Shown piece after piece: positions 1,579 through 12,906 of a DNA stretch of 14,590 bases. The first letter of the stretch is position 1. Every line of letters starts with the position of its first letter. Where the stretch lies: positions 526-15,115 of the forward strand of contig JAOZRC010000051.1 of assembly GCA_029940345.1 (NCBI GenBank). Reading direction: 5' to 3'. Source of the DNA: Desulfobacterales bacterium. GTDB taxonomy: Bacteria > Desulfobacterota > Desulfobacteria > Desulfobacterales > JAUCGF01. Under the pieces are notes generated by a model that saw only the letters and a program-made list of their open reading frames with translations, was not told the DNA's origin and ran no database searches. Both the position numbers and the translations under genes were made by a program.

Positions 1579-2007
1579 TTATGTATTCCAATCCTCAATA
1601 ACAAGTCCGGGAACTCTGTCAAAATCACGGCGATTGCTCGTTATCAAAATTCCTGAGACAGATAGAACAATGGCGGCGATGCGTAAATCCAGAGTACCGA
1701 TGCGTACTTTGTCATCTTTAAGTTTTGCAAGCTGATAAGCGGCCTCGGATGTGAAAGGCAAGACATTGACGATGGAGAAATAGCGCAGCATAGCCTGTAA
1801 TCTCGAATAAGCATATACCAGATGATCGGGTTTCTTACTAATTTTGTTAATTACAGCCAAGCGGCCTCGCATTTGCTCTTAAAGCGTAACTACCGTTGTG
1901 CAAACGGATTGAGCGGGTGTGGCTTTCAGGTGTTGTATAACGGCTTCGCGGCCGGCCTGCTGAAAAGTAACACTGTCCGTGTCTAAAATATATAGCGGCA
2001 ATTTCAA
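1579..2007 (-). pseudogene. PIN-domain (VapC-like) toxin with an in-frame TAA
   Basis: Reading from a TTG at 2007 gives LKLPLYILDTDSVTFQQAG and onward, a PIN N-terminus with the acidic D-T-D motif (residues 9-11). This continues in one frame to codon 42, where TAA (1881-1879) interrupts. The same frame then resumes as EQMRGRLAVINK and runs to GTLDLRIAAIVL, TSNRRDFDRVPGL and a normal end at 1579. VapC-type toxins are ribonucleases that use four clustered acidic residues; here the stop falls one codon before the conserved Glu of 'T-L-x-E-Q'. Without the stop the product would be 142 aa, a normal PIN length. An ATG at 1872 could start a 97-aa C-terminal piece, but it would lack the first catalytic Asp and Glu. 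The TTG overlaps the antitoxin stop codon, as is common for TA pairs. Family call is firm; nonfunctionality is inferred. Confidence 0.8.
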
Positions 2008-2356: not shown

Positions 2357-3364
2357 TCAACAAATCCGCGGCAATTGCTCACCGGTGAGCATATCGACAA
2401 TGCGGCGGCCGCCGATGCGGGTTTGCATAAACACCTGACCGGGAAAAGCGTCTGCCACTTCGCCGATGATGCACGCATCCTGGCCGAAAGGATTTTCCCT
2501 GACAGCGGCCAGTACGCTTTCGGCATGTCGGGCCGACACGCAAGCCAGCAGTTTGCCCTCATTGGCAACATAAAGCGGGTCCAATCCCAACAACTCACAT
2601 AATCCGGCGACCGCGGCTTTCACCGGAATCATATCTTCATAAATTTTAATCCCCATCTGTGACTGCAGGGCAATTTCGTTTAAGGTCGTTCCCACGCCGC
2701 CGCGTGTCGGGTCTCGTAAAACATGCACTTCGTCGGAAACAGCCAGCATTTGCTCAACCATCCCATTTAACGGCGCGGTGTCGCTTTGAATGGCAGCATC
2801 AAAACGAAGCCCTTCACGCTGCGTCAAAATGGTGACGCCATGATCAGCAATCGACCCGCTTAAAATAATTTTATCTCCCGGTTGCGCGTTGGTGCCGCTA
2901 ATGTCAGCATTTGCGAATGGCTGTCCGATACCGGATGTGTTGATAAAAATTTTATCGGCGGCCCCTTTGGGAACTACTTTGGTGTCACCGGTGACAAGGG
3001 TGACATCAGCATTTTTAGCGGCAGCCGCCATATTTTTTATGACGTCGCTCAGTTCCTGCATGGAAAACCCTTCTTCAATAATCAGGCCGGCGCTTAAAAA
3101 AAGCGGTCGGGCACCGCACATGGCCAGGTCGTTGACGGTGCCGTTCACCGCCAAATCACCAATGCAGCCACCGGGGAAAAAAATCGGGTCCACCACATAG
3201 CTGTCCGTGGAAAAGGCCAGACGTTGTTCACCTACGGTAACGACCGCGCCGTCATCCAAGCGGTTTAACACAGGATTGTCGAAAGCCGGCAACACCAGGT
3301 CCTTAATGAGATTGTGGGATGCTTTGCCGCCGCTGCCATCGTCTAATAGAATTGTGTCTTTCAT
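2357..3364 (-). CDS. hypE: HypE, carbamoyl dehydratase for [NiFe]-hydrogenase cyanide ligand synthesis
   Basis: HypE takes a carbamoyl group from HypF onto its C-terminal cysteine and dehydrates it with ATP to a thiocyanate, the source of the CN ligands of the NiFe site; it works with HypF and the HypCD complex in the cytoplasm. The 335-aa product is full length. It has the N-terminal glycine-rich motif DDGSGGKASH (residues 8-17), the AIRS-type ATP-binding core (FSTDSYVVDPIFFPGG, VNDLAMCGARP, VTGDTKVVPKG), the second domain with LRDPTRGGVGTTLNEIA, and the diagnostic C-terminus GEQLPRIC with Cys335 last. The ATG at 3364 lies one nt after the stop of the DUF4276 remnant; GGAGA is 12 nt upstream, within that remnant. 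No hypA-D/F or hydrogenase gene is in the window, so it looks separated from its usual operon. Confidence 0.96.
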   Translation of the reverse strand: MKDTILLDDGSGGKASHNLIKDLVLPAFDNPVLNRLDDGAVVTVGEQRLAFSTDSYVVDPIFFPGGCIGDLAVNGTVNDLAMCGARPLFLSAGLIIEEGFSMQELSDVIKNMAAAAKNADVTLVTGDTKVVPKGAADKIFINTSGIGQPFANADISGTNAQPGDKIILSGSIADHGVTILTQREGLRFDAAIQSDTAPLNGMVEQMLAVSDEVHVLRDPTRGGVGTTLNEIALQSQMGIKIYEDMIPVKAAVAGLCELLGLDPLYVANEGKLLACVSARHAESVLAAVRENPFGQDACIIGEVADAFPGQVFMQTRIGGRRIVDMLTGEQLPRIC

Positions 3365-3365
3365 T

Positions 3366-3561
3366 TTAATTCAACATCTCCAATTTTTCCAGCCATTCGT
3401 GAAAATGAGGGCATTCTGTTCGTATTTTATCCAATCCGATAGAATTTGCTATGATTGTTCCGAACGGGTCTTTTTGATATTCGGGAATAACATTGCCAAT
3501 TCGTCGATTCGGACATGTTTCAGGCTTATCATTTATATATTCGGGGTTTGGAAATTTATCA
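3366..3561 (-). pseudogene. C-terminal remnant of a DUF4276 protein
   Basis: The recognisable part is EDPDKFPNPEYINDKPET and onward to IGLDKIRTECPHFHEWLEKLEML, which is the conserved C-terminal third of DUF4276 proteins (the 'PEDINDGPET..P' and 'CPHFxxWLxxLE' motifs). DUF4276 proteins are TOPRIM-like, normally about 200 aa, and usually sit directly downstream of an AAA_21 ATPase, as here. The N-terminal two thirds, which hold the E-G and D-x-D acidic motifs, are missing. Homology begins essentially at the stop codon of the upstream ATPase, pointing to an internal deletion. The open frame extends up to an ATG at 3617 and overlaps the ATPase tail, but those first residues do not resemble the family. 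Its stop (3368-3366) is one nt before hypE. Confidence 0.72.
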
Positions 3562-4668
3562 GGGTCTTCCGCCAATAACATTTTCTTCCCACAATTCCGC
3601 AATCGAATAATCATCAAGCCAGTCTTTTAATTCGACCTCACTCAATCTTTTAAATGTGGATTCCTGGCCGACCTCTCCACAACGATGATATCTTCAGGTA
3701 CAAAATAGTCTATAAAAGCAGGTGATTGAGTGGCGAAAAATATTTGTGATTTTGTAGCAGCGCTTTTAATCAAACCTGAAATAATATTCAGAGCCGACGG
3801 ATGCAAGCCGAGTTCAGGCTCATCAATAATAATTACAGCCGGACGTTTCTCTTCCGGTTGTAAGAGCAAAGTGATCAGCGCCATTGTGCGCAGCGTTCCG
3901 TCTGATGCCTGATGAGGCCCGAAAACAGTATCAGAATTGCGCTCGCGCCAGCGGAGAATAACATTGTAACCATCCGGTTCCAGAATGAAATCATCGAAAA
4001 AAGGCGCTATGAGTTGTAATGTGCTGACTATGTTTGAATATTCCAGATGATGTGATTCACGCATCCACAGCAGATATGAGGCTAAATTTCCACCATCCGC
4101 CTTAAAAAAAACGTTGTCACTGACGCTCTGAATCTGTTTGATTTTAGCTTCATCCGATGTATCATGAAATTGATAGGCCATGCACTGTCTCAATAACTGC
4201 AAGATGGCTTTTGCAGTTGCGTTCTCGTTATGGGCTTCTTGTATCAAACCAGTTTCACCATGCCCGGCACCGAGACTTTTCCATGGGGCTTGCGTAGAGA
4301 ACACGGTTTTGCTAAAACGAAATTGTTCTTCTACAAAAATCAAAGTATCCATAGCGGCATAAGAAAGGGTCATGCAGTACTCATTTTCACCTTGATCTGT
4401 TTGAAACGATAACTTGGCAACAATATGCTTTGTTTTTTTTTTTGGGACTTTCAAATAGAAATGAACTCGCGCCTCCGCCTGCAGCGATAAATGTTTTCAG
4501 ATTTCCAGAACCGCCCGTCATCCAGTTCAGCAATTTAAAAAAAGTGATGAAATATGATTTTCCGGAACCGTTAGCACCAATCATAATATTAATCTTGCTA
4601 AGTTCGAAATTTTTCAGTTGTTTGATTGTTTTAAAACCGGATAAGTCTATTTTTGTCAGACGGTTCAT
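3559..4668 (-). pseudogene. AAA_21 (RecF/SMC-like) ATPase broken by two compensating frameshifts
   Basis: The ATG at 4668 begins MNRLTKIDLSGFKTIKQL with Walker A GANGSGKS at residues 31-38, a typical AAA_21 N-terminus. In an 11-A run (plus-strand T 4433-4443) the frame must shift by one base to continue as PKKKTKHIVAKLSFQTDQ. That second frame carries the signature region (ASDGTLRTMALI), Walker B PAVIIIDEPELGLHPSAL and the H-loop FFATQSPAFIDYF. Near 3667-3670 (GGTCGGCCAGG on the minus strand) one base appears lost, and the original frame resumes as ESTFKRLSEVELKDWLDD and ends NVIGGRP-stop at 3559, the usual ending of the family. Restored length is about 369 aa, normal. In prokaryotes these ATPases pair with DUF4276 proteins and are suspected defence components. 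Loss may be real, or the shifts may be homopolymer sequencing errors. Confidence 0.82.
4433..4443 (-). other. A11 homopolymer at the ATPase frameshift (possible slippage site)
   Basis: Eleven consecutive T on the plus strand, hence A11 in the ATPase mRNA, coding for PKKK. With 10 A the ATPase frame would be continuous at this point. Runs of this length are prone to replication slippage, RNA polymerase slippage and sequencing error. Confidence 0.6.
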
Positions 4669-4997: not shown

Positions 4998-7900
4998 CTA
5001 ACCAAACAGACTGAATTTTTTCTGATACAATGCAAAATAGGTGACCGGAATGACCACCAAAGTAAACAAAGTCGATGCCAGCAGGCCGAAAATCAGGCAC
5101 CAGGCCAGTCCGGAAAACACCGGATCAAATGTAATGGGTATCGCGCCCATGGCGGTGGTTGCGGCGGTGAGCAGAATCGGGCGCATCCGTATGGCGCCGC
5201 TTTGAAGGATCGCTTCCTTAAAGGCCATGCCTTTCTGAACCGCTTCCTGGATGAATTCAATTAAAATCAGCGAATTGCGAATCACGATACCACCTAATGC
5301 AATCATGCCAATCATGCTGGTAGCCGTGAAAAAAACCGGATTGCCAAAACCGCCTACGGTTTCATCCGTGATAATGTTGAGCAGCCAAAAACCGGGCATG
5401 GCGCCGATCAGCGTGAGCGGGATGGCCATCATAATTAAAACCGGCATAAAAAATGAATCAGTGGTGACAATTAACAAAATATAGATTCCGACCATGGCAG
5501 CGGCAAAGGCGATACCCATATCCCGAAACACCCGCAACGTGATTTTCCATTCCCCCTCACCGGCCCATTCGACGCGTATACCATCGGGCAGCGGATTTTC
5601 TTTGAGTCGTTTCTGCATATCCAGCACCGCTTCGGCCGGCGCCCGGCCGGCCATTTCGCCGGTTACATACACTACCCGTTCCAGGTTTTTATGATATATC
5701 GGCTGCGCTTCAGGAGCGCGCACGATATGAATCAGCTCCCCCAGCGAAACGATTGCACCCGAAGCGCCCTTAATCGGTATTTGTGTCAAAGACGCCAGGC
5801 TCGAACGTTGCGTGCGCGGCAGAATGATTTTTATCAGCAGGGGCGTGCGCTCCCCGGTAGCATGCACCGTGGCGCCGACAGAACCGCTCAACGCCGTTTT
5901 TAATGTCTGTGTGATGGTTGTTGCGGTAATGCCGTGGAGAGCGGCTTTTTCCTTATCAATGATAAAATCGCACCGCTCCCGGGACGCTTCGGTCGTATCA
6001 TCAATATCGACTACAAACGGTTCGGTCGCCATCAAATTTTTGAGTTGCGCAGCCGCATCAATTAATTCTTCATAAGATTTATCGGGGTCGCCATACACCT
6101 CTTCGACCAGCGTGGCCATCACCGGCGGGCCTGGCGGCAGTTCAACAATTTTAATATCCGCATGATGGGTTTTGGCAATTTTTTCCAAATCCTTCCTTAA
6201 TCGCAGTACGATCGCATGGCTTTGCTGCTGACGAACCGCTTTATCGGCCAGGTTGATACGAATGTCGGCCAGATGTCCGCCTTGACGGAGGTAATAATGA
6301 CGCACCAGTCCGTTAAAATCAATCGCGGATGAACACCCGACGTAGGAAACAAAATTGGTGGCCTCTGGAATCGTGCGCAGGTAATCTTCAAAGGCCAAAA
6401 CAACCGCGTTGGTAGTTTCCAGGGTTGTGCCTTCGGGCATGTCAATAACGATCTGAAATTCGTTTTTATTGTCAAATGGCAGCAGTTTCAGCGGCACTAA
6501 GCGAGCCAGCGCGAGATACACTGCTCCGCCCATCAGCATCAGCACTGCCAGAAGCAGCAGCCAGCGGTTGACGCGGAAATTGAGAAAAGGCGCAACAATC
6601 CGGCGATACATGCGTGTAATCAACGTCGTGGAAGGCTTATTCTGGCTGGATGAAGTTTCATCGGGCGGCGCAAAAGTGCGCTTTCTTAATAACAGATAGG
6701 AAAGCCAGGGAACGATGGTCAGGGCGCAGCCCGTTGAAAAAATAACCGTGATCGGTACGTTGGAGGCCATGGGCGCCATATAGGGGCCCATCATGCCGGT
6801 GATAAAAAAAAGGGGCGTAAAACTGAGAATGATGGCAATCGTGGACATAATCACCGGGGGCAGCACTTCCTGCACGGCGAAAAGGGTGGCCTGGAGCGGG
6901 TTGTGCTTTTTCCTCCAGATATGACGTTGAATATTATCTACGTTAGTGATGGGATCATCAACAACCAAGCCTAACGAAAGAATCAGGGCAAACAGGGTCA
7001 CCCGGTTAATGGTGAAGCCCAATAAAAAATTGACGAACAGCGCCAGAGAAAAGCTGATGGGAACGGCAACGGCGACCACCAGCGCTTCGCGCCATCCGAG
7101 GGTGAACGCCAGCAAAATAACGACCGAAATAACGGCAAACGTCAAAGAGCTTAACAGTCCGTCAACTTTTTCCTGGGCGGTTTGGCCATAGTTGCGTGTA
7201 ATCTCAATATGGACACCATCCGGGATGACCGATTTCTTCAGCAAATCCAGTTGCGCCAGAATCTTTTCGGATACGACGACGGCATTGGTTCCTCTCTTTT
7301 TGGCGAGCGCCAGCGTTACGGCCGGAAATGTCAGGGGCTGATTTTTTAATTGATGGGTCTGGCGATAATAGTGCGAATAGCCGATGCGGGAGTAAGCGTT
7401 GACCTCCTCGGGGCCGTCAATGATTTCAGCTATATCGCGTAAATACACCGGACGCCCGCGTTGCACGCCGACCACCAGCGCAGCCACTTCATCTGACGAG
7501 GTCAAAAAGGAGTGGCTACTAACGGTGTAAGCGGTGTTGGCGCGGACCATGCCGTCCGTCGTCACCGAAGCATCCGCGCCTTGAAGGGCGTTTTGCACCT
7601 CCTGAAAAGAGACGCCTAATGAGGCCATCTTTTCAGGCAACAGCTCCACACGCACTTCCCGCTTGCGCCCGCCGATAATCTCAGTGCGGGAAATATCCTT
7701 CACTTCAGACAGTCGCGCCAGCACCTCTTCACCGATGCGATGAAGCTCATGGTCGTTATAGCGCTCTGAAAACAGGGTTATATTCACAATGGGCACATCA
7801 TCGATCTCCACCGGCTTTACCACCCAGCCTTTGACGATCGGCGGTGCGCGGTCAATGTTCATAGATATCTTGTTGTGAAGTTTAAAAATAGAGTCTTCGC

Positions 7901-8234
7901 GATTCTCGCCCACAAAAAAACGCACAATGATAAGCGCTTTATCCTGACTGGAAATGGAATACACATATTCAACACCGTCAATTTGCCATAACAACCGCTC
8001 TAACGGGGTCGCTACCAATTTTTCAACTTCCTCGGGCGATGATCCCGGCGCAGACACCATCACATCGGCCATGGGAACCACGATTTGCGGCTCCTCTTCC
8101 CGGGGCGTAACCAGAACAGCGGCAATCCCCAGACATAAAGAAAGAATGATCAGAATGATCGACATTTGAGATGTGAGAAATTTATGGACGATTCCGAGGA
8201 TAAAACCCTTGGGTGAATATTCTTCTGTTGTCAT
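4998..8234 (-). CDS. RND-family efflux transporter permease (inner-membrane pump)
   Basis: This is the proton-driven trimeric pump subunit that passes substrate through a periplasmic adaptor and outer-membrane channel. The 1078-aa product has normal RND length and two-fold layout: TM1 at about 24-43, a large periplasmic loop with PGSSPEEVEKLVATPLE (63-79), a TM bundle from about 362, a second periplasmic loop from about 590, and a second TM bundle near the C-terminus (GGIVIRNSLILIEF is the TM10 signature). TM4 has the proton-relay pair Asp426-Asp427 in GLVVDDPITNVDNI, which favours the hydrophobe/amphiphile type (HAE) over the metal type. Substrate cannot be told from sequence. The ATG at 8234 has GGAAA nearby and lies 30 bp after the TOPRIM gene, so it is co-directional and probably co-transcribed with it. 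The partner adaptor and channel genes lie upstream beyond the cassette. Confidence 0.93.
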   Translation of the reverse strand: MTTEEYSPKGFILGIVHKFLTSQMSIILIILSLCLGIAAVLVTPREEEPQIVVPMADVMVSAPGSSPEEVEKLVATPLERLLWQIDGVEYVYSISSQDKALIIVRFFVGENREDSIFKLHNKISMNIDRAPPIVKGWVVKPVEIDDVPIVNITLFSERYNDHELHRIGEEVLARLSEVKDISRTEIIGGRKREVRVELLPEKMASLGVSFQEVQNALQGADASVTTDGMVRANTAYTVSSHSFLTSSDEVAALVVGVQRGRPVYLRDIAEIIDGPEEVNAYSRIGYSHYYRQTHQLKNQPLTFPAVTLALAKKRGTNAVVVSEKILAQLDLLKKSVIPDGVHIEITRNYGQTAQEKVDGLLSSLTFAVISVVILLAFTLGWREALVVAVAVPISFSLALFVNFLLGFTINRVTLFALILSLGLVVDDPITNVDNIQRHIWRKKHNPLQATLFAVQEVLPPVIMSTIAIILSFTPLFFITGMMGPYMAPMASNVPITVIFSTGCALTIVPWLSYLLLRKRTFAPPDETSSSQNKPSTTLITRMYRRIVAPFLNFRVNRWLLLLAVLMLMGGAVYLALARLVPLKLLPFDNKNEFQIVIDMPEGTTLETTNAVVLAFEDYLRTIPEATNFVSYVGCSSAIDFNGLVRHYYLRQGGHLADIRINLADKAVRQQQSHAIVLRLRKDLEKIAKTHHADIKIVELPPGPPVMATLVEEVYGDPDKSYEELIDAAAQLKNLMATEPFVVDIDDTTEASRERCDFIIDKEKAALHGITATTITQTLKTALSGSVGATVHATGERTPLLIKIILPRTQRSSLASLTQIPIKGASGAIVSLGELIHIVRAPEAQPIYHKNLERVVYVTGEMAGRAPAEAVLDMQKRLKENPLPDGIRVEWAGEGEWKITLRVFRDMGIAFAAAMVGIYILLIVTTDSFFMPVLIMMAIPLTLIGAMPGFWLLNIITDETVGGFGNPVFFTATSMIGMIALGGIVIRNSLILIEFIQEAVQKGMAFKEAILQSGAIRMRPILLTAATTAMGAIPITFDPVFSGLAWCLIFGLLASTLFTLVVIPVTYFALYQKKFSLFG

Positions 8235-8264
8235 TGCAGATTTCCGGGATTGGTTAGATAGTAA

Positions 8265-8975
8265 TTATTCCAAATTTTTCCAAATAGTTAAAAGATATTT
8301 CAGGCTTTTTAAATGATTCGTTTGAAAGCATCGTTCATATAAAGATTCTAAATATTCTTTATTGGCCGCAATACCTGGTTTTAGTTTTGAATATCTTTGA
8401 TTTCTTTCAAGAAACATCTCTTTCAAATAAGCTTCATGAAACTTTGCTTTGTTTGAGAATGAATAGTCTCCGCTATCATAGCAATCCATCTTTTCCGGAT
8501 CTTTGGCACTCACATCATAAAATTTTTTAAAAATGGACAATCTTTTGCTTTGCGGATTTCTCCTCAACATTTTTGTATTGCCAAGAAACCATGTTTCAAT
8601 ACAGCAATTTTGTATAATGATATGATAATCAGGCTGATAGGTTGATATATTGCAATTTGTATCTTCTATTTTTTTTATTTTTTCATTCACTGTTTCGAGT
8701 CTTTTTTCATAACCATCATCATCAGCATCCAAGCATATAAAAAAATGATCAATCATCATCGCACTGTTTTTATTATGATTATAAATATCAGAAAAAGATT
8801 GTTCAATTAGTTGTAAAATTCTTGGGTAGCCTTTAGCTGCGTAAAGCAAAAAACAATCAGAGGAAACATCCTCAATTCTATTCACTCTGGTCAAATTCGG
8901 GAATTGATGATTGATCCACGCAGGATAGACTTTGGGTTCTGTCCTTCTGCCTTCAAGTAAAAAATACAGATTCAT
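8265..8975 (-). CDS. TOPRIM-like (RloB/DUF4276/AbiLii-type) putative nuclease
   Basis: The 236-aa product has the acidic pattern of small TOPRIM proteins that partner with ATPases. It starts at once with FLLEGRRTE (Glu8, Glu13), corresponding to the catalytic Glu-Gly motif, and has FICLDADDDG (Asp83, Asp85, with Asp86 and Asp87) after a hydrophobic strand, corresponding to D-x-D. CIETWFLGN (124-132) resembles the 'E-x-W' segment that follows in RloB- and DUF4276-like proteins. The rest is lysine-rich helix. Its ATG overlaps the upstream ATPase stop as ATGA, indicating translational coupling and a two-protein system. In related pairs (OLD class, PARIS, AbiL, Rlo) the TOPRIM protein cuts nucleic acid when the ATPase senses phage; that role is inferred. 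Base composition is clearly more AT-rich than the pump genes on both sides. Exact family uncertain. Confidence 0.7.
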   Translation of the reverse strand: MNLYFLLEGRRTEPKVYPAWINHQFPNLTRVNRIEDVSSDCFLLYAAKGYPRILQLIEQSFSDIYNHNKNSAMMIDHFFICLDADDDGYEKRLETVNEKIKKIEDTNCNISTYQPDYHIIIQNCCIETWFLGNTKMLRRNPQSKRLSIFKKFYDVSAKDPEKMDCYDSGDYSFSNKAKFHEAYLKEMFLERNQRYSKLKPGIAANKEYLESLYERCFQTNHLKSLKYLLTIWKNLE

Positions 8976-10129
8976 CCGATTCCTTCCTCATACGCCGGTA
9001 AATTAATCAATCTGACATATTTTTCAAGAGTCGAAGCGGTTTCAAGTGCGGGAATAGCTGTGGAATCAATTACGCTGACGCGACCTCCTTTTCTTTGAAC
9101 TATTTTCCAGTTTTTCCATGATATCTCATTGATTATATACGGATGATGGCTGGTAACAATAAATTGTAACTTAGTGGCGTATTCATTGATAAAATCAGCC
9201 GCACCCGGCATACAATTGATACCTAAGCTGTTTTCAAATTCATCAATGATAACAACTGCTCCGGCAGGAGCAAGATGTATCCCGGCCAAGTGTTCAAATA
9301 TGTTGAGCATACCAGAAGATAAACGGCTTTGGTCTATCCAATCATTGGAATCATGTTCTTTGATACTTAAAAAGAGTGTGTGTTCACCAGCCTTTTTTAT
9401 GTGGGCAATCTTAAATTCTTTAATAAATGGAAAAATATCAATAAACGCATGCTTAATAGTATTAAATTCTTTGGGGTAGAATTTCTGCAAAAAATAAGTT
9501 TTCCAGAGCCAATGCATTGTTCTTGCTATTTTTTTGAATTCATTGAAATTTAAATCCTTATTGTTTTCATCTCGCATTTTTTTATCAAACGGAACAAGCG
9601 GATTTATTACACTTATACTGGAATAGATATTTTTTTCTAAAAATATCAAATAGTCGAAAGCTTTTCGAATCGGTATCAGAACTTCTTCTTCGGAAAATAT
9701 AGTGACAATACTCTCAGTTTTTTTTACTTTTGGAATCACTTGGCTATTATTCCATTCCAATGTATTGAGGTTACGCTCAAAAATAATCGCATTATCACTT
9801 AAATCAGTGAGCTTTTCATAAGTGATTCGCGCCTCTTTTGATGACTTAGAGGTTTCAACTGATTTTTTTTCATATTCATTTTTTATCCGGCTGCTTTTAA
9901 GTATCCACTCATATTCTTTTTCTTCGTGAGCAAAACGAACCTTCCATTCAATTCCATCCAACCTGTAATTATCGTCAATTGCGACATCCCGAACCAGTAA
10001 AAGCGCTTTTAATATTCTCGTCTTACCCACTGCGGATATCCCCACAAGCAAATTCAATTGTTCAAAACAGATCTCTTCTAAATGCCAATTGTTTTTTTTA
10101 TCATCAAATTTAAAGCTTTTTATCTCCAT
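8972..10129 (-). CDS. ABC/AAA_21-type ATPase of a two-gene ATPase-TOPRIM cassette
   Basis: From the ATG at 10129 the product is 385 aa: MEIKSFKFDDKKNNWHLEEI, Walker A GISAVGKT (30-37), a long lysine-rich middle likely to form a coiled-coil or insertion, a signature-like RLSSGM (269-274), Walker B VVIIDEFEN (Asp296, Glu297) and H-loop VTSHHPYII (His328/329). These are the complete ATPase motifs of the AAA_15/AAA_21 group related to OLD and RecF/SMC heads. I chose this start because GAGAGGG lies four to five nt upstream; an upstream ATG at 10192 would add 21 basic residues without a good ribosome site. The stop overlaps the TOPRIM gene. The cassette sits between the adaptor and pump genes of an efflux operon in the same direction, which is unusual. 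Function as phage sensor or effector driver is inferred from family context. Confidence 0.78.
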   Translation of the reverse strand: MEIKSFKFDDKKNNWHLEEICFEQLNLLVGISAVGKTRILKALLLVRDVAIDDNYRLDGIEWKVRFAHEEKEYEWILKSSRIKNEYEKKSVETSKSSKEARITYEKLTDLSDNAIIFERNLNTLEWNNSQVIPKVKKTESIVTIFSEEEVLIPIRKAFDYLIFLEKNIYSSISVINPLVPFDKKMRDENNKDLNFNEFKKIARTMHWLWKTYFLQKFYPKEFNTIKHAFIDIFPFIKEFKIAHIKKAGEHTLFLSIKEHDSNDWIDQSRLSSGMLNIFEHLAGIHLAPAGAVVIIDEFENSLGINCMPGAADFINEYATKLQFIVTSHHPYIINEISWKNWKIVQRKGGRVSVIDSTAIPALETASTLEKYVRLINLPAYEEGIG

Positions 10130-10274
10130 GTTTCCCTCTCTAATTGCTATCTGACGTTTGTATTTCGATTTGAATTTGTTCCGGCAGAACACACAAGCTG
10201 AAACCTGCGCTTCTTCTTTTATGCCTTTTGCGAGAAGCCTTTATTCCACAAAAAACAAAATCAGATTCAAATAT
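10130..10274. other. 145-bp junction between adaptor gene and ATPase cassette; no gene seen
   Basis: The stretch is AT-rich and carries the ribosome site of the ATPase (10134-10140). On the minus strand it includes TTCTCGCAAAAGGCATAAAAG-like sequence that vaguely resembles dispersed 'CGCAAAG' repeats, but no defined ends or inverted repeats could be drawn. No convincing promoter or terminator. Confidence 0.4.
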
Positions 10275-11414
10275 TCAATATCCCAGAGTTTCATTCCCGG
10301 ACAGTCCAGACAACACTTCCACCTTATCGCCGAAACGTTTGCCGGTTTTGATGAACTGCGAACGCCAGCGGTTATTATTGTCCTTCACCGCGACCAATTC
10401 CAGTTGCCCTACATGGCGCACGGTTGCACGAGGGATCATTATCACTTCCAGTTCCTGAACCGGGATCAGCAGTTTGCCGAACATACCGGGGAACAACCCC
10501 TCAATGGGCGGAAGAGTCGCTTTTACTAAAAAAGTACGGGTTTGGGGGTCCGCATACGGAATGATTTCATCAACCGTTGCAGTGGTCGTGCTGTCCAACG
10601 TGGTGATGACTGCTTTGAGTTCGGTTCCTTGTTTGACTTGTTTGATCAGACCTTCGCGCACATACGCTTCCAGACGCAAAGCGCCGGCCGTTTGCAGGAT
10701 TAATAACGGTTTGCCCGGAAGCGCCAGGTCGCCCTGTTCAACGAGTCGTTTTAAGACTTCACCAGATTCCGACGCTTTTATTAAGGTGTATCCCAGCGCG
10801 ATTTGGGTTTCTTTGACCACCTCTTCGGCTTGGCGGATTTGGGATTGGGAGCCTGTTTGGGCTTCACGGGCGTGTTCGACGCCGGCTTTCGCCTGTAGAA
10901 AAGCGGATTTGGCGCGTTCAAGTTCCTGGGCCGTTGCGGCCTGAGATTCATAATAGGTTTGGACGCGCTTGTAGTCGGCTTCGGCCTGTGTTAATTTAGC
11001 TTCAACGGCAATCACCGCCTGTTGGGACTGTTTTTTACCGGCAATTGCGGTTTTTAAAGCTTGGCGCGCCTGATCCAAACGTGAATTCGGCTGACGGTTG
11101 TCCAGAACAATCAGCACCTGATCCTTGGTGACTTTACTGCCCGGACTCACATTTATTTTGATAACCTTGGCCGTAATCTGAGATTCAATCCGGGTTTCGG
11201 TGCGCGGCCGCACCGTTCCCATCGCCTTACACCATTCTGTGATGGTTTCCTTCACGGCCCGCACCTCTTTTTTCGGATTGAGGGCGTTTGCACTTGAAGG
11301 ATTTGCGATTTTACCGGGTTTTATTTGTGGCTTGGAAAAATAATGAAACGCCCCAAAAGCGATCAGGACGCCCCCTGCCAGCACCAAAACAGTGACGATG
11401 ATTGTTTTTTTCAT
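10275..11414 (-). CDS. RND efflux periplasmic adaptor (membrane fusion protein)
   Basis: This subunit bridges the RND pump to the outer-membrane channel. The 379-aa product has an N-terminal membrane anchor (residues 4-25), a first lipoyl half-motif VIKINVSPGSKVTKDQVLIV (84-103), a long helical hairpin rich in Ala, Gln and Glu (about 112-205), the second lipoyl half from YTLIKASESGEVLKRLVEQG (209-228), a beta-barrel domain (PLLILQTAGALRLEAYV and onward) and a membrane-proximal end with FPGMFGKLLIPVQ and a final VLSGLSGNETLGY. Length is normal. The ATG at 11414 has AGGAAA upstream, 19 nt after the outer-membrane factor stop, so the two are in one operon. The cognate permease is displaced about 2 kb downstream by the ATPase-TOPRIM cassette. 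Confidence 0.92.
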   Translation of the reverse strand: MKKTIIVTVLVLAGGVLIAFGAFHYFSKPQIKPGKIANPSSANALNPKKEVRAVKETITEWCKAMGTVRPRTETRIESQITAKVIKINVSPGSKVTKDQVLIVLDNRQPNSRLDQARQALKTAIAGKKQSQQAVIAVEAKLTQAEADYKRVQTYYESQAATAQELERAKSAFLQAKAGVEHAREAQTGSQSQIRQAEEVVKETQIALGYTLIKASESGEVLKRLVEQGDLALPGKPLLILQTAGALRLEAYVREGLIKQVKQGTELKAVITTLDSTTTATVDEIIPYADPQTRTFLVKATLPPIEGLFPGMFGKLLIPVQELEVIMIPRATVRHVGQLELVAVKDNNNRWRSQFIKTGKRFGDKVEVLSGLSGNETLGY

Positions 11415-11433: not shown

Positions 11434-12906
11434 TTATTGAACGGCAAGCCAAAAACCGATCGCTCTTTGAATCTCGGCAAGCGCTTTTTCATGATCATAA
11501 AAAGCGGCTGTTTTACGTGTGCGCGCCCGACTCAGCGCAAGCTCGCCTTCTAAGTAGCGCGTGATTCCCACGGAGCCGCCTTCATACTGTTGTTTGACTA
11601 ATTGTAAGGATTCTTCAGCCATGGCAACGCTTTTTTCAGTCACTTGCATCCGTGCAAGCACCTCATCCATCTTTAAATAGGCGTTTTTTACATCGGATTT
11701 GACCGCCAAAACGGTTTTACGATCGGCGGACATCATCTCTTCCAACACGGCCAGGCTTTTGGCTTCGGCGCTACGCGTACTGAATCCGGTGAAGATATCC
11801 CAATTGAGGATCACCGCGGCGGTCCAATTATCGCGGTCGGTGCTGTAAGAGAAATTCGGATCGTCCAAATAATAATGGGCGGCCAGGTCGATGCGAGGCC
11901 AGTAACCGGCGTTTGCCACATCCATCGCCATACGTGATTGCACCAACTGCTCGCGAACTTTTTTTAATTCGGGTCGATATTTCAGGGCATGAACGATGCC
12001 ATCATTATAATTTTGCGGAAGTTCAACCGGCTGAACTGCGACAGCGGTCAGTTTTAGCGGTGTGGCCGGGTCCAAACCCATGACTTGGGCCAGTCCGGTC
12101 AGCGTCGCTTTCTGATTGCTTTGGCTGCGCACCAGGTCTTCGCGCGCATTGGCCAGTCGAACTTCCAATGAAAGAATATCGGATTTTAACACACCACCGG
12201 CTTTGAACCTGACTTGCATAATACGCAGTTGGGTTTCAACGGCAGCGACCGATTCCTTGGCAATACGGATAAAATCACGGGCGGCCTGGGCGCTGTAATA
12301 AATACTGATCACGGCAGTCACCAACCGGTTGTCAACGCTTTGGCGCTCTGACTCGGAAATAGCGACTTTTTTTTCAGCCATTTTATAACCCAGGATATCT
12401 TTTCCGCCATTAAACAGATTAATGCCCGCTTTAACGCCGGTTTCGTAATTTTGAAACCATCCCGGATCATTAAAATCCGTATCCGGCGGAAGTTTTCTTT
12501 GATCGATGGTTTTAAACAGATAGGCGGAGGGCGCATCTCCCTGGAGGTATTCGGTATAAACCTGCACAAACGGATAAAAAGGGGTGCGCGCCAGTTGCAT
12601 TAAGGCCTGGGCCTGGTGTATGCGAGCGGTCGCCATGTTGCTATCCGGATTGTTGGCCTTCGCGATTTCAACCGCTTTTTTCAAACTCAGCGGCTGATCG
12701 GTTGAACAGGGCGCGGAATCAGCAGATGTTTCAGATTCTTTTGGGTAGTTGCAGGCCAGATGAGCAAACGCTTTGCGAGTATTTTTGTATGTGTATTTAT
12801 CAGCGTTGTAAAATTGTTTCCCGACGGCACGACAACCGCCAAATAAAAAAATAACTAACAAACAGGTTGAAAGACGTAACGTCGAGGTCATAAAATTTTT
12901 TCGCAT
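11434..12906 (-). CDS. TolC/OprM-like outer-membrane factor lipoprotein
   Basis: This is the outer-membrane channel and periplasmic tunnel of the tripartite pump. The 490-aa product carries a lipoprotein signal (MRKNFMTSTLRLSTCLLVIF followed by lipobox LFGGC, Cys25), as in the OprM branch. Two outer-membrane efflux protein repeats follow: the first from SLKKAVEIAKANNPDSNMAT with GVKAGINLFNGGK, the second from HALKYRPELKKVREQL with AAVILNWDIFTGF. Those NLFNGG/DIFTGF strands and the alternating coiled-coil helices are diagnostic. The C-terminus VKQQYEGGSVGITRYLEGE matches the usual 'Y..G.....L' segment. AAGGAG is 11 nt before the ATG at 12906. It is the first gene of the efflux operon; a REP-like element lies just upstream. 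Confidence 0.93.
   Translation of the reverse strand: MRKNFMTSTLRLSTCLLVIFLFGGCRAVGKQFYNADKYTYKNTRKAFAHLACNYPKESETSADSAPCSTDQPLSLKKAVEIAKANNPDSNMATARIHQAQALMQLARTPFYPFVQVYTEYLQGDAPSAYLFKTIDQRKLPPDTDFNDPGWFQNYETGVKAGINLFNGGKDILGYKMAEKKVAISESERQSVDNRLVTAVISIYYSAQAARDFIRIAKESVAAVETQLRIMQVRFKAGGVLKSDILSLEVRLANAREDLVRSQSNQKATLTGLAQVMGLDPATPLKLTAVAVQPVELPQNYNDGIVHALKYRPELKKVREQLVQSRMAMDVANAGYWPRIDLAAHYYLDDPNFSYSTDRDNWTAAVILNWDIFTGFSTRSAEAKSLAVLEEMMSADRKTVLAVKSDVKNAYLKMDEVLARMQVTEKSVAMAEESLQLVKQQYEGGSVGITRYLEGELALSRARTRKTAAFYDHEKALAEIQRAIGFWLAVQ

Follow-up and report, generated by a model that had tools for sequence, protein, structure and literature searches.

A two-gene ATPase-TOPRIM cassette, probably an anti-phage system, acquired within an RND efflux operon of a Desulfobacterales bacterium

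Anti-phage systems of the OLD-like kind combine an ABC-type ATPase with a TOPRIM nuclease. In the OLD nucleases of class 1 (P2 Old) and class 2 (GajA) both functions reside on one polypeptide, in PARIS (AriA-AriB) they reside on separate genes, and in RloAB/AbiL (PF13707; PADLOC models AbiLi and AbiLii) an AAA_21 ATPase is followed by a short TOPRIM-like partner. The same layout is found in HEC-01, a PADLOC candidate made up of an AAA_21 ATPase and a DUF4276 protein, and WonAB of the V. cholerae WASA-1 prophage is a two-gene OLD-like ATPase and nuclease, described as acting through abortive infection and translation shut-down (PMC12137116). Here we analyse a window of 14,590 bp (bases 526-15115 of contig C574 in the 6.05-Mb draft genome G000 of a Desulfobacterales bacterium), in which an ATPase gene and the gene of a TOPRIM-type partner stand between the adaptor and permease genes of a resistance-nodulation-division (RND) efflux operon. 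We consider it likely, with a probability of about 75%, that this pair belongs to the ATPase-plus-TOPRIM kind of two-gene anti-phage systems (OLD-like, with split genes) and is a mobile cassette, carried as a co-directional passenger in the operon.

The gene order in the open reading frame (ORF) list is outer-membrane factor, adaptor, ATPase, partner and permease, all on the minus strand, as an earlier note on this DNA had described it, and the ATGA overlap that the note placed between ATPase and partner is present at 8972-8975. The genes and motifs concerned are the following.

11434-12906, minus strand: TolC-like outer-membrane factor of the host operon (OEP, 187.4 bits)
10275-11414, minus strand: RND periplasmic adaptor of the host operon (TIGR01730, 125.8 bits, cut-off 94.9; HlyD_D23 match; 89% identical in the same-genus genome G001)
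8972-10129, minus strand: ABC/OLD-type AAA_21 ATPase, 385 amino acids, putative sensor or regulator (AAA_21, 54.9 bits, cut-off 27)
10019-10042, minus strand: Walker A, ATPase residues 30-37 (sequence and alignment)
8265-8975, minus strand: TOPRIM-type nuclease partner, 236 amino acids, putative effector (ORF list)
8952-8954, minus strand: codon of Glu8, the conserved TOPRIM glutamate (sequence and alignment)
8727-8729, minus strand: codon of Asp83, first acid of the TOPRIM D-x-D/E motif (sequence and alignment)
4998-8234, minus strand: RND permease of the host operon (ACR_tran, 530.4 bits; 91% identical in G001)

The earlier note had started the ATPase at GTG 10192, giving a 406-residue frame; ATG 10129 fits better, because GAGAGGG lies four bases upstream of it and the family alignments begin there. 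In the 17-row family alignment G30, S32, G35 and K36 of Walker A, the signature S271-S272-G273, D296-E297 of Walker B and H328-H329 are all invariant; the four motifs of an ABC-type ATPase (Walker A, signature, Walker B and H-loop) that had been read from the single sequence hold across these rows. The predicted ATPase model (predicted local distance difference test score 81.8) has structural matches to PtuA, Rad50, SMC and AriA, and the best PADLOC match of the protein is AbiLi at 66.2 bits. For the partner, 19 aligned rows share E8, G9 and D83 without exception and have D or E at position 85 throughout, which bears out the E-G and D-x-D motifs noted earlier from the single sequence. The predicted partner model moderately matches the TOPRIM domains of OLD nucleases, so that the proposed TOPRIM fold, with the E and D-x-D/E acids characteristic of this kind of system, is supported at the level of prediction. 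Against the closest cassette, L001, the ratios of nonsynonymous to synonymous substitution for the two genes are 0.13 and 0.30, indicating purifying selection, and the cassette is probably functional.

Judged by its sequence, the partner lies between Pfam RloB and DUF4276, with RloB/AbiLii and DUF4276 as its nearest profiles. It scores 28.1 bits against RloB (PF13707), below the cut-off of 31.5, and an RloB gene above the cut-off in this genome is a separate locus (G000:C635, 134.6 bits). Against DUF4276 (PF14103) the score is 17.5 bits with a cut-off of 30.2, the match to HEC-01B is weak (18.1 bits), and that to AbiLii reaches 18.9 bits over a partial stretch of the profile (32-63 of 170). 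HEC-01 shares the layout with the pair and not the partner family; the window also contains a broken copy of it, about 330 bp beyond the permease. Although PARIS likewise places its ATPase and TOPRIM functions on separate genes, the window partner has no match to DUF4435 (PF14491) at E <= 1 and so differs from AriB, and DUF4435 is absent from the 13 families matched by 19 partners, of which 16 match RloB at E <= 1 and 13 match one AbiLii model at E <= 0.01. Unlike the OLD nucleases, the window encodes ATPase and TOPRIM as two overlapping ORFs, and no helicase gene adjoins the pair in the window. A difference from WonAB is suggested by the description of WonB as a PD-(D/E)xK nuclease; the model of the window partner matches TOPRIM domains. 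The PHROG matches of the pair, phrog_16255 and phrog_5836, are both families of unknown function. The partner reaches no named family at that family's cut-off, as the earlier note had anticipated, and the ATPase falls under AAA_21. The pair is a subfamily without a name in Pfam, NCBIfam, PADLOC or PHROGs as searched; the note's idea of an undescribed subtype is fair at that level and goes too far for the kind itself, which is known. Literature searches named no such pair, which may already have been described, for example in a 2020 ABC-ATPase survey or in the supplementary tables of PMC9122126.

The pair stands out from its surroundings in composition, with a G+C content of 33.1% against 51.1% for permease and adaptor and 48.7% for the outer-membrane factor, confirming the AT-richness from which acquisition had been suggested. 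In G001, whose permease and adaptor proteins are 91% and 89% identical to those of the window, the pair is missing from the operon, and in blastn of the window against G001:C74 a stretch of 2026 bp in the window corresponds to 44 bp in G001. The earlier note had named conservation of the pair in the pump operons of relatives, as expected of an RND pump accessory, as a finding that would tell against its reading. The comparison was extended to 13 more relatives by running tblastn with the pair against the best-matching adaptor of each and the accompanying permease, and the matching operons of all 14 (L029-L042, with G001) held no copy at E <= 1e-5; two distant cassettes (L047 and L053) do adjoin efflux transporter genes. 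As G001 has 44 bp at the site and none of the 14 operons holds the pair, sequence comparison indicates that it was acquired by the operon of the window. Judged by tblastn ends, the adaptor-permease gap is about 150 bp or less in 12 of the 13 further relatives. In G010 it contains a gene for a REP-associated tyrosine transposase (RAYT; L036:5943-6479, 188.6 bits, cut-off 80) flanked by 33-nt inverted repeats, and this gap therefore accepts unrelated inserts. Adaptor and permease are both complete in the window, so that what appears to be a defence cassette, with no mobility genes in the insert, landed in an efflux-operon gap and left both neighbours intact.

The closest cassette, L001/L044 from a Desulfobacterales metagenome-assembled genome, is 81% identical in DNA and lies in a different context, 0.76 kb after a PIN-domain gene. 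Comparison with it and with G001 delimits the inserted DNA as follows.

8248-10273, no strand assigned: stretch missing from the same-genus operon (blastn of window against G001:C74)
8252-10159, minus strand: unit common to the window and L001/L044 (blastn, 81% identical DNA), comprising the two genes with about 30 and 13 further bases
10141-10155, minus strand: left arm of a 15-bp imperfect inverted repeat near the ends of the unit (sequence comparison)
8253-8267, minus strand: right arm of this repeat, matching at 13 of 15 positions and overlapping the stop codon

Shuffling the two end stretches 20000 times gave a match of 13 in 15 once, in a test for which the unit boundaries came from blastn and the repeat had been spotted by eye beforehand. 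A transposon signature in the form of terminal inverted repeats was considered and rejected: the scan of the whole of G000 gave 48 and 57 matches with at most 2 mismatches, against 58 and 42 for the reversed control, and the two matches with 1 mismatch are both inside ORFs. The repeat of the window unit is no genome-wide repeat family in G000. The wider test, on 150-bp flanks of the window cassette and other cassettes, found no inverted pair above the shuffle range. The 15-mers GCCAGTTAACAATTA and GTCGGTTAACAATTA recur on several G000 contigs and are perhaps repeat or insertion-element ends. An integron-cassette reading was likewise dropped, there being no room for an attC site between cassette and permease.

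Relatives of the pair are rare and patchy. A single-sequence search of 146 related genomes matched 10 at E <= 1e-3, of which 9 (11 loci) were counted credible, the match in G136 (57 residues in a 790-residue frame) being judged a chance one and dropped; the same search found no pair in the sister genome G001. Profile searches matched 5 of 395 genomes across the phylum and 11 of 389 in the order, and a class sample of 389 genomes returned the same 11. In total 16 distinct loci were recovered from the phylum, including one remnant (G186) and frameshifted or shortened copies (G077, G543), and the order of the two genes is constant across the family. The pair was also found on 7 of 72,556 plasmid records (Bernardetia, Nostoc, Planktothrix, Proteus, two Acinetobacter and Methylovorus). 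On the Nostoc and Methylovorus plasmids a tyrosine recombinase gene lies upstream of it, and the Planktothrix plasmid has a XamI restriction system nearby. Among 50,697 phage records there was a single match, an unverified faecal scaffold. Four scans of viral contigs yielded 1, 8, 6 and 7 loci, largely on the same contigs, and the viral-contig search with query A6 found no relative; matches missing from the VIA lists were not counted as evidence.

Several of these cassettes occupy the gpA-gpQ (old/tin) hotspot of P2-like phages. L082 and L087 both carry the pair between a gpA replication endonuclease gene and a portal gene, each assigned by profile; in L086 the gpA side is confirmed by profile, the ORFs of L084 are as in L082, and one further ORF separates gpA from the pair in L086 and L087. 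L060 and L088 carry the pair in settings other than gpA-portal. A near-identical-DNA search of E. coli matched 1 of 5,426 genomes, with a copy 100% identical to L082; in the RefSeq annotation this copy has a portal gene on one side and, on the other, a replication endonuclease that is flagged as incomplete. The cos-proximal gpA-gpQ locus is described in PMC9122126 as a hotspot of anti-phage systems in which P2 keeps old and tin. The anti-phage role proposed in the earlier note is supported by context, because the pair is found at this hotspot, on plasmids and near restriction genes. A rare branch would thereby be added to the ATPase-TOPRIM kind, tied by context to a locus of anti-phage systems, and with a P2-borne relative in E. 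coli 23CRST009 the branch can be tested at once in a laboratory host.

Other cassettes have surroundings of their own. In L051 (L051:1255-6006, G143) two large genes without Pfam matches and an XPB-like helicase gene (ERCC3_RAD25_C, 163 bits) stand close behind the cassette, possibly a further defence operon. In L080 (L080:4951-7915, G543) the partner is shortened at about 103 amino acids, and 9 bp separate the cassette from a prolyl-tRNA synthetase gene downstream. The Acinetobacter pittii plasmid pSU8507_OXA-72 (L065), small and mobilizable, bears a family member together with a carbapenemase gene.

By analogy with PARIS, for which an ATPase-nuclease mechanism is described in PMC12409363, the ABC-type ATPase may oligomerise and hold the TOPRIM nuclease bound and inactive. 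The ATPase would respond to a phage product, or to a change that the phage causes, by freeing or activating the nuclease, which would then cleave nucleic acid by two-metal chemistry at E8, D83 and D85. The target would most likely be tRNA or another host RNA, favoured by analogy only, and less likely DNA. The infected cell would stop growing before phage are made, so that defence is probably by abortive infection of a PARIS/AbiL-like form. No promoter-like or terminator-like site is listed in the 145-bp gap before the ATPase gene (minus strand, 10130-10274), and transcription of the pair with the pump operon is therefore predicted as likely; the function of the pump itself would not be needed for the pair to work.

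The efflux neighbourhood raises the question of whether the pair is kept preferentially beside transporter genes of tripartite pumps and is triggered or controlled in part by envelope stress or by expression of the pump, or guards a pump that may serve as a phage receptor. The next gene is an efflux-transporter gene in 3 of the 16 cassettes: the window, G007:C1107, where an RND permease lies 60 bp downstream and the contig end cuts off the upstream side, and G133 (L047:4194-9220), with a MacA-like adaptor about 60 bp upstream and an ABC ATPase and MacB permease 2 bp downstream. The insertions look independent, because the partners of G133 and G007 are only 39% and 29% identical to that of the window. 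In the fetched flanks of 51 RloB and DUF4276 control loci no efflux-transporter gene was the next gene, giving a Fisher p of 0.012, or a marginal 0.049 without the window, with small numbers, a window chosen for its operon and a comparison picked after the data had been seen. Each denominator counts some loci with the next gene lying beyond the contig end. Control flanks reach no further than 1.5 kb and leave only the next downstream gene comparable, and the probes, being efflux proteins taken from the cassette loci themselves, could overlook distant pumps beside controls. The controls comprised 21 of 27 RloB matches (all scanned, the only efflux match being the window itself; two of the pair's own family, three pieces of one place in G114 and the short L154 were dropped) and 30 fetched DUF4276 loci of at least 115 match rows. 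These 30 did not include the DUF4276 remnant in the window itself, another neighbour of the RND permease; none of the other 13 cassettes adjoins an efflux gene (among their neighbours are prolyl-tRNA synthetase, a restriction gene and a liv-like operon); and the RAYT gene of G010 in the same gap suggests that the site may simply tolerate inserts. We therefore count the adjacency as a lead and regard an efflux-linked module as quite unlikely; selective nesting inside tripartite efflux systems of at least two unrelated classes (RND and MacAB), with the cassette placed between the adaptor gene and the transporter gene, amounting to an efflux-coupled ATPase-TOPRIM immunity that is co-expressed with envelope export machinery or senses damage to it, is very unlikely. 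Operon nesting as such was rejected as a special trait, a co-directional next gene within 150 bp being found in 7 of 13 own loci, 5 of 21 RloB loci and 16 of 30 DUF4276 loci, with 2, 3 and 2 unreadable neighbours respectively and with L052 (frameshifted), L070 (remnant) and L079 (contig end) left out of the own 16.

Two further readings concern the function of the pair rather than its position. The overlap of the two genes, their patchy spread and their carriage on small plasmids would also suit a selfish module of the toxin-antitoxin type, in which the ATPase counteracts a partner that is toxic by itself and persistence is by addiction. We think this unlikely, as such a reading was excluded experimentally for PARIS according to PMC9122126 and a simple sequestration model was ruled out for WonAB according to PMC12137116; the gpA-gpQ locus, which PMC9122126 describes as also housing some non-defence functions, is no proof either way. 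A housekeeping role in DNA repair or RNA processing could be drawn from the Rad50 and SMC heads among the structural matches of the ATPase, and from an archaeal OLD-family ATPase reported in PMC12796447 as a cell-cycle factor, and is highly improbable given mobile contexts and credible occurrence in 9 of 146 related genomes, with none found in sister G001. An anti-phage cassette that travelled into the operon is the reading we prefer over both.

The remainder of the window contains three further features.

3366-4668, minus strand: second, broken ATPase/DUF4276 cassette (PADLOC HEC-01A/B), between the permease and a hypE-like gene
2357-3364, minus strand: AIRS-family gene (Pfam AIRS/AIRS_C), which we take to be hypE-like
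1579-1872, minus strand: PIN-domain (VapC-like) ORF (26.0 bits, cut-off 23.6)

The broken cassette, which was not listed in the finding of the earlier note, has its ATPase split between two reading frames, and of its DUF4276 partner a C-terminal part alone was found; with the pair at 8265-10129 one permease is therefore flanked by two different ATPase-TOPRIM-type cassettes. The hypE-like ortholog in G001 is 90% identical and lies on a different contig, where 10 kb around it match the DNA of the window in the gene itself and a 41-bp patch only. As the ortholog is on another contig without the surrounding window DNA, the hypE-like end of the window looks rearranged. The PIN-domain ORF constitutes a third module of toxin or defence type in the window.
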